Below are positions 23,363 through 27,895 of a stretch of DNA of 64,000 nt, piece after piece (the first letter of the stretch is position 1; every line of letters starts with the position of its first letter). This DNA is from Mucilaginibacter arboris (GTDB lineage: Bacteria > Bacteroidota > Bacteroidia > Sphingobacteriales > Sphingobacteriaceae), in contig NZ_WPIK01000015.1 in NCBI RefSeq assembly GCF_009754915.1, forward strand, positions 1 to 64,000, read 5' to 3'. The position numbers and the translations under genes were made by a program. Below the pieces are notes generated by a model that saw only the letters and a list, made by a program, of their open reading frames with translations, was not told the DNA's origin and ran no database searches.

Positions 23363-24538
23363 TCAGGATAAATTATAAGCAGGATCTGTAACCGCAGCAA
23401 CAATTTGTGCCTGGCCGGCCAGTAATGCTTCGGCATATTCCTGGTGAAGTATACGTCGGGGCAACTCATTCGGAAAAAATTCAAGGTCCCACAATCCTGC
23501 CTGGTGCCAAACGGTTAAATGGTCCCAGTCTGGCCGGTCAATAATAGGGTAAATGCAAACTCCCCACAAAGGGATTTTCTTTTGCAGTAAAATTTCTATT
23601 TCATCTGCAATATACTTCATCCATTTCGGCCGGTCTTCTTTCGGGTGACTGGTTTCTGATAAAACTACAGGTCGCTGATAGCGTTGGTAAGCTTCTGCCA
23701 GTAAACTGTTGAACGGCCTGAAGCGGGGGTCGCGAGGCTCATCGATCCACTTCAAGAATTGATGTGTTGTGCTAACCCATTGATTATTATAATAATAGTT
23801 GAAACCGAGTATATCAAGGTAATTGGTAGAACCGCCAAGTTCCGGACAAATACGGCCCGAAAGAATATCGAGCACCTGATACTGGTTTTCGTGCAGGTTC
23901 TTTGCAGCTAAAAGTTCTTCTTCTGTGGCATTTAGCGGCGGTACAACCTGTATCAATGGCTCTGTTGTCATGATCCGGATAGAAGGATCTATTTCGCGCA
24001 TCGCTACAATAGCATCGATATAAGCACGCATCAGCGCATATTTTAAATCCCAACCCTGGTTGATGCTGTAAGGCGTAGTACCACGCACTTCACCGCCCAG
24101 CCAGGAAATGAAGCTTACTTCGTTTATAGGTGTAACAATCAGCACATCGTCTGGACTAACCGAACGATAAAAACGTACAAAAGCACGGCATAAAGCAGAA
24201 AAACGCGGTGTAAAATGGGGATGGGTTGGCGTTAAATCTGTTGCAAAACCAAAATGGCAAATATCCCACACTTGTTGTATGCCGTTGGCTTTGCCTCTTT
24301 CAATCATGTGGGCAACTGTAGTCCAATCGTATTCGTATGGTTTTTTTTCGACGTGGCTCCATTGGATACCTTCGCGCACAGTTTTAATATTAAACTGTTC
24401 CAGGTCCTTGTAATCCTGATCTATCAGTTCCAGATGTGCGGTTTCCTTCAGTAAGTCAACCCGGTTTCCATAATAATTCAGCTGGTCTGTGCATTCGTAA
24501 CCTGCCATCCAAAAAGACTGGAAAGGATTTTTGTTCAT
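23363..24538 (-). CDS. GH1-like (clan A) glycoside hydrolase
   Basis: 391 aa, a TIM-barrel glycosidase. The probable acid/base is Glu140 in TPINEVSF and the nucleophile Glu295 in VVLSETSHPK, at the ends of strands 4 and 7 as in clan GH-A. Other family-1-like features are REGIQWSHVEKKPYEYDW and LDILGFNYYYNNQW. It is shorter than classic GH1 enzymes (about 450 aa). No signal peptide, so it works in the cytoplasm on imported oligosaccharides. The gene is followed by the motif-pair hairpin. The sugar specificity cannot be read from sequence. Confidence 0.82.
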   Translation of the reverse strand: MNKNPFQSFWMAGYECTDQLNYYGNRVDLLKETAHLELIDQDYKDLEQFNIKTVREGIQWSHVEKKPYEYDWTTVAHMIERGKANGIQQVWDICHFGFATDLTPTHPHFTPRFSALCRAFVRFYRSVSPDDVLIVTPINEVSFISWLGGEVRGTTPYSINQGWDLKYALMRAYIDAIVAMREIDPSIRIMTTEPLIQVVPPLNATEEELLAAKNLHENQYQVLDILSGRICPELGGSTNYLDILGFNYYYNNQWVSTTHQFLKWIDEPRDPRFRPFNSLLAEAYQRYQRPVVLSETSHPKEDRPKWMKYIADEIEILLQKKIPLWGVCIYPIIDRPDWDHLTVWHQAGLWDLEFFPNELPRRILHQEYAEALLAGQAQIVAAVTDPAYNLS

Positions 24539-25490: not shown

Positions 25491-26909
25491 TTACTCTATC
25501 CATATAACAGAATTGCCCGTGCCATACTGATTTTGCTCCCATAGTTTGTTTCCGGGATCTAAAATCCAGTTTCCATCTACCAAAAACTTATAGAGATACT
25601 TGCCTGGTTTTAGGCGTATATTGATTATCCATACATCGCCTTTGTGCTCAAGCGTATAGCCTTGTTCATTCCAATTGTTAAAATTACCTGCAAGCCGTAC
25701 AGTATGTGCCGAACTATAACCTTTTAAAGTAAATGTATGATTTGGTTTTACTGCCAAAAATGAGTTGGTATTACCATCTATTGTTATTTGATTTGGATTA
25801 AGCGGATCAACTATCCACTGGCCGTCTGCAATAAATTTATATTGATAATTGCCGGCAGAGATAGTATAATGAAGTATCCAGCCAGTAGTAGTTTTTGTTA
25901 GTGGAAGCATATTAGTATCCCAATTGTTAAAGGTGCCTGCCACAAAAACTTTATGGGCATTAGTATAGCCGTTTAGCTTAAAGGTAACAGCTTCGCCGAG
26001 CAGAAGCACCGAGCTGAGAACACTATTCTGTACCTGAGTAAGCTTATTTGCCGGATCGGTTATCGAATAACCATCAACTATAAAACGGTATAAATAATTA
26101 CCGTCGTGCAGGTATAAAGGACATTCCCATCTGCCATTTTTTAAACGCATCGGTATTTCGTTCCATTTATTAAAACTGCCTGCAACAGTAATTTTACGGG
26201 CTGATGGATAACCAGCAAGCCTGAATGTATAATTATAGCGGAAGTAAATAGAATTGTTGTTGCCTACACCATCATCTTCACTTAGTTTGTTATTTACATC
26301 AGTTGTCCAGTTGCTGTTAATAATAAATTTGTATGCATATTTACCGGGTTCCAGCCTTACATCAAACACCCAGCCACTGTCGGTTTTGTTCATATTGCCT
26401 TTAATGGTGCTCCAGTTATTAAAACTTCCTGATACAAACACACGTCTTGCCTGTATATTGCCTGGTACAAAAAACCTGGTTAAACCAGATGAAAGTTCGT
26501 GTACGGTAACCCTCGAAAAATTATTAACACCATAAGCCACTTCTGACGGATAGCCCGGCCTCGAACTACTTTTATACACATTACTGCTAAGGAAATACGG
26601 GGTTATTTGTATGTTTTCCTTTCCGTCTGATAACGAGCGGTTCAATTCAATAATATTCTTTTTTGCTTTAACATCCCAACCATTTTTAATAGCAGGCAGG
26701 TAATTTCCCTGCAGCAGCATTTCTGCAGTTTGTCCAACTATACCACCAACCCGTAGCAAGCTATCTATCTCTGTTTTACTTGTATGAACATCTACTATTA
26801 ATATTAAATGATCACGAGACATAACAATACGATTACGCTTCTGTGCCCGTGCTTCCATTAAGCTGCAGAGCATCAGTAACATTGTAAATAAATGTTTAAG
26901 CGTTCTCAT
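25491..26909 (-). CDS. exported protein with four CBM48/AMPK-type modules
   Basis: 472 aa. A signal peptide (LFTMLLMLCSLMEARAQ) is followed by a ~130-residue leading domain and four tandem modules of ~80 residues. Each has the pattern V.VSGSFNNW, GWVFDVRLEPGKYAYKFIIN, then W..D..NKL. The four modules begin near residues 155, 235, 320 and 400. This is the AMPK-beta/CBM48 glycogen-binding fold, usually found singly. Four in tandem outside the cytoplasm suggests binding of a long alpha-glucan or a structural role. It follows a two-DTG protease by 5 bp on the same strand. Confidence 0.82.
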   Translation of the reverse strand: MRTLKHLFTMLLMLCSLMEARAQKRNRIVMSRDHLILIVDVHTSKTEIDSLLRVGGIVGQTAEMLLQGNYLPAIKNGWDVKAKKNIIELNRSLSDGKENIQITPYFLSSNVYKSSSRPGYPSEVAYGVNNFSRVTVHELSSGLTRFFVPGNIQARRVFVSGSFNNWSTIKGNMNKTDSGWVFDVRLEPGKYAYKFIINSNWTTDVNNKLSEDDGVGNNNSIYFRYNYTFRLAGYPSARKITVAGSFNKWNEIPMRLKNGRWECPLYLHDGNYLYRFIVDGYSITDPANKLTQVQNSVLSSVLLLGEAVTFKLNGYTNAHKVFVAGTFNNWDTNMLPLTKTTTGWILHYTISAGNYQYKFIADGQWIVDPLNPNQITIDGNTNSFLAVKPNHTFTLKGYSSAHTVRLAGNFNNWNEQGYTLEHKGDVWIINIRLKPGKYLYKFLVDGNWILDPGNKLWEQNQYGTGNSVIWIE

Positions 26910-26914
26910 TTTGG

Positions 26915-27895
26915 TTAATGATGAGTATAAATGTACATTTCAAATTCTTTTTTAGCGAAGTTTATGGTGAAGATGCCCCTTGCAAAAAAGTCGTAACCTA
27001 ATATACCATCAAACGTGTAACCATAAAATTTGCCTATGTTTTCAAGGTTAGAAACTAAAACACGGTTATTTGGAAAGGTATAACCGTCAATATTTAGCTT
27101 GTTAAAAGAAGCATAAATGATTTCGTAAGATTTTCCTCCAACACCCAATACATTATTACGATTAATAACCTGTAATGATTTGATGATTTTTTTAGAAACA
27201 TGAAGATCGAGCATGTTGGTTTCGGCGCCGGTATCAAACGCAAACCAAATACTTTTATCATTAACGTTGCCTTTAATAAACATTACATCGTTCATACATT
27301 TAAAAGTGGTTTTAACGTCAGGCTTGTCAAATACTTTTTCTCCCGGCAGTATATCTCCATTTTTATCAAGCTTATGAATATAAAGCAGGTTTTTAGAAAT
27401 ATCTACCGTTATGGCAAGCTTGGCAAACAGGCGGGTACCTAACAGGCCCAGAATTTTAATCTGTTTGCTGTTTTCAATGCCCGACAAATCGGTCACATCG
27501 GCTACAAGGCGGTCGTAATGTAAGTCAAATCCTAAAGATAAATTATGAACAATGGCTGTAAAAGTGTTTGAGGAACGGCCATTGATTCCGCCCGATTCCT
27601 GTTCCTTGATCTTAGGAAGGCCCCGAAAATAAGTAGAATTTAAAATGAGATAAGGAGCACCCGTATCCAATACAAAGTTGCCCCCTACAGAATCCAACTG
27701 TGCTTCTACAATAATCAGGTTTCCAGCTCGTTTAATAGGGATTGCTAAAACTTTAAAATCGCCGTAAGGGTCAGAATCGCTTTCAATTAATGATTTAAAA
27801 TTAATACCGCCAATAATAATATCCGGTTTGCCCATAGCTTTTACGCCACTTAAGGCCGATAGCAAAAGTACGATAAGCAAAATCCGTTTGAACAT
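26915..27895 (-). CDS. retropepsin-like aspartic protease, bilobal
   Basis: 326 aa with a signal peptide (RILLIVLLLSALSGVKA). Two Asp-Thr-Gly motifs are visible, Asp77 (FVLDTGAPY) and Asp221 (FAFDTGAETN), each followed by a hydrophobic-Gly pair (ILGLLGTRL, FDGILGYDFF). This is a pepsin-like bilobal arrangement in a retropepsin-like sequence. It should act in the periplasm or on the surface. The CBM48-repeat gene starts 5 bp downstream, so the two form an operon. The substrate may be its partner or another exported protein. One motif copy (27101-27114) lies inside. Confidence 0.85.
   Translation of the reverse strand: MFKRILLIVLLLSALSGVKAMGKPDIIIGGINFKSLIESDSDPYGDFKVLAIPIKRAGNLIIVEAQLDSVGGNFVLDTGAPYLILNSTYFRGLPKIKEQESGGINGRSSNTFTAIVHNLSLGFDLHYDRLVADVTDLSGIENSKQIKILGLLGTRLFAKLAITVDISKNLLYIHKLDKNGDILPGEKVFDKPDVKTTFKCMNDVMFIKGNVNDKSIWFAFDTGAETNMLDLHVSKKIIKSLQVINRNNVLGVGGKSYEIIYASFNKLNIDGYTFPNNRVLVSNLENIGKFYGYTFDGILGYDFFARGIFTINFAKKEFEMYIYTHH

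Follow-up and report, generated by a model that had tools for sequence, protein, structure and literature searches.

A conserved gene pair in Bacteroidia encodes a four-module CBM48 protein and a two-motif aspartic protease, both of exported type

Why should a protein built of AMPK-type glycogen-binding modules be encoded next to an aspartic protease, and what could the two do together outside the cytoplasm? The question arises from a stretch of 64,000 nucleotides from Mucilaginibacter arboris (contig NZ_WPIK01000015.1, positions 1 to 64,000), which I call the window. Its minus strand holds the following features.

26915..27895, minus strand: aspartic protease, 326 aa, exported type, two retropepsin-like lobes (open reading frame and Pfam)
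26910..26914: intergenic gap of 5 bases between the CBM gene and the protease gene
25491..26909, minus strand: CBM protein, 472 aa, exported type (open reading frame and Pfam; borders by eye on the alignment)
About residues 1-23, minus strand: signal peptide of the CBM protein (by eye on the alignment)
26475..26840, minus strand: N-terminal domain, residues about 24-145, poorly conserved (borders by eye)
26232..26474, minus strand: CBM48 module 1 (M1), residues about 146-226, with W166, K194, W201 and N219
25989..26231, minus strand: CBM48 module 2 (M2), residues 227-307, W249 kept; R275, S282 and S299 at the K, W and N positions
25743..25988, minus strand: CBM48 module 3 (M3), residues 308-389, W330, K358, W365 and N382 kept
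25491..25742, minus strand: CBM48 module 4 (M4), residues 390-472, including the stop codon, W413, K441, W448 and N466 kept

The initial annotation saw four CBM48/AMPK modules behind a signal peptide, and this is borne out: Pfam finds four stretches each of AMPK1_CBM (E 1.7e-53) and CBM_48 (E 1.4e-26), both above the curated cut-offs (179.2 vs 26.8 and 93 vs 22.4 bits), and the N-terminus is hydrophobic, as it is in all 39 aligned CBM proteins. Its remark that CBM48 modules are usually single and intracellular was too strong, as publications on the periplasmic MalS and on Dysgonomonas esterases mention CBM48. The nearest relatives in the PDB are the glycogen-binding domains of AMPK beta (E 6.9e-12 with the sequence, 3.9e-15 with a profile), the best match being that of module 3 to AMPK beta-2, and no enzyme domain was recognised in the protein. 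The CBM partners in the families f54 and f63 are shorter (314-339 aa), with two Pfam modules in the four of five that were scanned. AlphaFold, run on two-row alignments, gave models with mean pLDDT values of 46.8 and 34.8, too low to be of use.

Between its signal peptide and M1 the CBM protein has a further domain of about 120 residues, absent from the initial annotation. No Pfam family has its best stretch there, and its profile has no PDB match at E up to 1. Most of this domain is missing in two of 24 relatives from the same family, L083 (7334-8521) and L085 (7284-8555), which retain the protease and the modules (four by Pfam in L083, by alignment in L085). Judging from the match range, the proteins of G294 and G370 resemble these two. 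A domain from family f54 matches both the N-terminal domain and CBM48 (95.0 and 93.4, respectively), and in f54 itself the N-terminal domain resembles CBM48; possibly, the domain is a decayed CBM48-like one. This stays a suggestion, because direct comparison of its profile with CBM48 fails (probability 1.3) and the link runs only via the f54 intermediate.

Have the modules kept the residues that bind an alpha-glucan? In rat AMPK beta1 these are W100, K126, W133, L146 and T148 (PMC2642990). The count covered 39 proteins with four modules, 25 from the family and 14 from outside it; the five shorter ones were omitted. The positions counted are the equivalents of W100, K126, W133 and N150, the last of which I take to be a further contact position of AMPK beta. 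The W/K/W/N quartet of M1 is present in 39 of 39 proteins at each position, that of M3 in 38, 34, 36 and 38, and that of M4 in 37, 38, 37 and 39; when 20000 quartets of module positions were drawn at random, 12 (M1), 71 (M3) and 108 (M4) were equally conserved. The quartet of M2 is unremarkable (38, 12, 36 and 23 of 39), 1201 of 20000 random draws being as conserved. Outside the family, M2 has both tryptophans and the asparagine in 14 of 14 proteins, with lysine in 11 and arginine in 3; inside it, lysine occurs in 1 of 25 and asparagine in 9 of 25. The W100, K126 and W133 equivalents are together present in M1, M3 and M4 of the window protein and not in its M2, and the contact residues are decayed in M2 of this protein and of much of its family. 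M2 and its sibling modules thus offer a view of a carbohydrate site decaying in one module while nearly fixed in the others. The conservation fits glucan binding, as support and not as proof, because tryptophans may also be conserved for folding.

The equivalents of L146 and T148 are variable, with a threonine in M4 only (31 of 39). CBM48 modules of amylases may be without these two contacts, which are features of AMPK. Their loss would also suit modules that bind something else, be it a different envelope glycan or proteins via the beta-sandwich surface, in a unit that serves envelope maintenance, and no gene for an alpha-glucan was recognised nearby. I regard such another ligand as unlikely, as the quartet ranks with the most conserved positions in M1, M3 and M4 and matches that of AMPK beta.

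The upstream gene was initially annotated as a retropepsin-like protease with both aspartate motifs, and this stands. Pfam places Asp_protease_2 in two stretches (E 2.1e-14, 54.4 vs a cut-off of 24.3 bits) and gag-asp_proteas above its cut-off as well (E 4.7e-08, 33.9 vs 28.2 bits), and the DTG motifs lie at residues 77-79 and 221-223, one per lobe. D77 and the whole first DTG are found in 43 of 43 covering rows, and D221 in 44 of 44. Alanine replaces the glycine of the second motif in 6 of 44 proteases; L071, L073, L076, L079, L086 and L102 have DTA or DSA in the second lobe and DTG in the first. Each lobe has a later hydrophobic-hydrophobic-Gly motif (residues 148-153 and 297-300, within ILGLLG and GILGYD), and G150, G153 and G300 are invariant in the covering rows. 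Of the 44 proteases, 43 have a hydrophobic N-terminus and the remaining one is truncated; the export of both proteins is judged from such N-terminal sequences. The profile matches PDB entry 9iy9, an 'Exported protein' (E 1.4e-08), and weakly 2hah, a 'Protease' (E 0.015), and entries of FIV retropepsin (E 0.059-0.077). At E 1e-10 the protease has no match on a plasmid.

The protease would thus be an active single-chain enzyme, predicted to be bilobal, in which each retropepsin-type lobe gives one catalytic aspartate. Its two Asp_protease_2 stretches and the match to 9iy9 place it with the clan AA peptidases (PF13650, PF13975), from other members of which it differs by being found with a CBM48 partner. 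Unlike the viral-type retropepsins (A2), which have one lobe per chain and work as homodimers, it has two DTG lobes in one chain; the layout is analogous to that of pepsin (A1), whereas the Pfam pepsin family is not among the three families that match the protease at E up to 1. By description it may also be likened to Rlo of Pseudomonas aeruginosa, as both are exported bacterial retropepsin-like proteases. Rlo proteins are secreted and related to RimB, their operon also codes for a transglutaminase-like membrane protein and for a protein of the ATP-grasp type, and the accessible part of the paper gives them a role in osmotic tolerance and cell shape and names no CBM48 partner (PMC12239564). 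Such a role would agree with envelope maintenance through another ligand; however, no Rlo protein is found by name among the seven PDB matches of the protease profile.

How firmly are the two genes tied to each other? The 5-bp link of the initial annotation holds, the protease gene being upstream. In 43 relatives the gap ranges from -19 to +14 bases, measured from the in-frame start nearest to the protease stop, and 16 of the 43 show a 4-base overlap. The initial annotation staked its case on the pair being conserved, and conserved it is: the CBM gene adjoins the protease gene on the same strand in 86 of 88 protease-bearing genomes (its own; 24/24 of the family; 17/17 of the class; 2/2 of the phylum sample; 42/44 further Mucilaginibacter). 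The pairing is therefore not due to chance. Both non-adjacent cases are contig ends: the protease of G365 starts at base 286 with the partner side at the edge, and in G318 the two genes are on separate contigs. Accordingly, 43 of the 44 further protease-bearing Mucilaginibacter also have the CBM protein; in G066 the start of the contig cuts the protease and the genes still adjoin. Promoter-like and terminator-like sites at the pair are within about one standard deviation of shuffled sequences.

Neighbours in an operon need not interact, and the two could be independent proteins that merely share one. This is very improbable in view of their adjacency over ten families and their joint absence; furthermore, over 20 genomes the distances of the CBM protein correlate with those of the protease at 0.71, which exceeds the neighbour control (0.54 and 0.56 with PhzF), and the partial correlation is 0.58.

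The same joint pattern is seen in the distribution of the pair. A long CBM protein occurs in 25 of 251 genomes of the family, including its own, and the same 25 have a close protease, the two lists having been compared by eye; weaker relatives of the protease (22-28% identity) in 7 of the 251, and single-module CBM matches in further family genomes, were left out of the pair counts. Within Mucilaginibacter the protease is present in 67 of 149 genomes, and at E 1e-30 no CBM protein is found in any of the 20 tested among the 82 without it. In the class sample the CBM profile matches 18 of 345 genomes (own included), representing nine further families, and the protease is directly upstream in all 17 other relatives; as these were found via the CBM protein, a lone protease there would escape that search. 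The protease search of the phylum sample finds 8 of 326 genomes (own included), all in the class Bacteroidia, without a lone protease, as the two carriers that are new also have the CBM partner. Within the samples, the pair is confined to Bacteroidia, where it is patchy and spans ten families.

A genome of the window's genus, G001, gives an example of this patchiness. Here PhzF and endonuclease V are 31 bases apart, and in the window they are separated by 2555 bases that hold just the two genes; the flanks of both are 78.6% and 79.7% identical. As the stretch missing from G001 comprises exactly two genes, the pair was lost or gained together. Since it occupies the same site in the window and in many Mucilaginibacter, a loss in G001 would be the simpler explanation. 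G002 has no match to the endonuclease, and in the pair-less Mucilaginibacter G168 and G084 an open reading frame that resembles an ABC-type ATPase (named by eye) stands beside endonuclease V. No phyletic link to glycogen synthesis is seen, because all 80 genomes examined, some with the pair and some lacking it, have the glycogen-synthase family (PF08323), which so does not discriminate; some pair-bearing genomes, such as G466, G474 and G631, have only a short form of about 280 aa.

Where do the two proteins act? The initial annotation proposed a surface glucan-binding or processing unit. Its core fared well, as the two-gene unit is conserved and the contact residues fit glucan binding; the surface location did not, since the window CBM protein has neither a T9SS domain (Pfam and NCBIfam list none at E up to 1) nor a lipobox pattern, and its neighbours are unrelated. 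Clear lipoprotein-type cysteines are seen by eye only in the relatives L099 and L100. A lipobox pattern scan flagged L077, L080, L084 and L099 and missed L100; in L077, L080 and L084 the cysteine precedes the likely cleavage site. The near neighbours of the pair encode PhzF, endonuclease V and a sigma factor, and no glucan gene, SusC, SusD or amylase was recognised among those examined, so the surroundings do not suggest a polysaccharide-utilisation locus. Capture and processing of starch at the surface is thus improbable, even though the two lipoprotein-like relatives speak for it, as does the general likeness of several CBMs on one exported protein to multi-site starch-binding proteins. Most likely, the pair is located in the periplasm. 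As a separate observation, the product of window positions 23363-24538 (minus strand, 391 aa) has no Pfam match and a weak one to NCBIfam GH35 (E 2.5e-05, 23 bits vs a cut-off of 500), and is perhaps a divergent protein of glycosidase fold.

The evidence fixes the partnership and the export route, not the mechanism. The reading that I prefer, with a probability of about 0.4, is that the two proteins form an extracytoplasmic unit, with a multivalent binder of alpha-glucan positioning or gating the protease dedicated to it. This reading draws on the module content, the catalytic motifs, the export-type N-termini, the pairing, the joint presence and absence, and the conserved contact residues. 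The CBM protein would bind an alpha-1,4-glucan multivalently, be it a maltodextrin, a starch fragment or an endogenous alpha-glucan; in its glucan-bound form it would contact the protease and position or gate it, and proteolysis outside the cytoplasm would come to depend on glucan.

The gating may be likened to the CBM48 of AMPK beta, which makes the kinase respond to glycogen (PMC2642990). Common to both are the family match (PF16561, PF02922) and the W100, K126 and W133 equivalents in M1, M3 and M4. In contrast to AMPK beta, the CBM protein of the pair has four tandem modules, is of exported type, contains neither a kinase nor an amylase and has not retained L146 and T148, and the partner enzyme is a protease from the next gene. 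A bolder form of the analogy, in which a multivalent CBM48 receptor would turn a dedicated bilobal retropepsin on or off in response to periplasmic alpha-glucan, as an extracytoplasmic counterpart of glycogen sensing by AMPK, is doubtful. PTST of plants, a protein with a single CBM48 and a coiled coil, offers another likeness. It is reported to bring granule-bound starch synthase to starch (PMC4339375) and is likewise a non-catalytic CBM48 protein that serves a separate enzyme; however, it belongs to the plant plastid, and its enzyme is a synthase rather than a protease.

Alternatively, the protease may have the CBM protein as its substrate, guard or inhibitor, and would trim or remove it while glucan binding protects or exposes it. 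Strict pairing, close coupling and the protease gene in first place are what one expects of an enzyme with its substrate or inhibitor, and the N-terminal domain, variable and missing in L083 and L085, resembles a dispensable region that is processed. However, an inhibitor role alone leaves the conserved glucan residues unexplained, and inspection of the alignment by eye showed neither a motif resembling an inhibitor nor a conserved cleavage motif; I consider this alternative improbable as well.

Apart from the pair, exported-type S41 peptidases with a single C-terminal CBM48 occur in Mucilaginibacter (L030:424-1737 (+), L002:1474-2808 (-), L120:858-2171 (+) and G300:C6:129006-130328; Pfam was checked on L030 only). 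The full-length fusion is found in 4 of the 149 genomes, and none of the 67 that carry the paired protease has it; as functional replacements of the pair, four genomes are too few to count. CBM48 and exported peptidases have thus come together on more than one occasion, which lends mild support to the preferred reading. In two further genera of the family, Ntn-hydrolase-like proteins of exported type combine TPR with a CBM48-like module at the C-terminus (L032:391-1776 and L033:379-1758; Pfam on L032 only). M. agri has a protein of 294 aa with one C-terminal AMPK-type CBM48, no other family and, by eye, no signal peptide (L119:1697-2581 (-)).

Both the CBM48 and the protease domains are known, while no description of their pairing turned up in the literature searched; among the matches listed, no title or abstract start describes it. 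The routes of glycan signalling known in Bacteroidota are mostly SusCD, hybrid two-component and sigma/anti-sigma systems. The fixed pair suggests a so far undescribed connection of sugar polymers with proteolysis outside the cytoplasm, and a glucan-binding protein strictly paired with a protease would add sugar-dependent proteolysis as a different logic. In Mucilaginibacter the pair makes a two-gene target. If the bolder, AMPK-like reading is true, part of the Bacteroidia would possess, as a two-gene cassette, a previously undescribed sugar-gated protease system.
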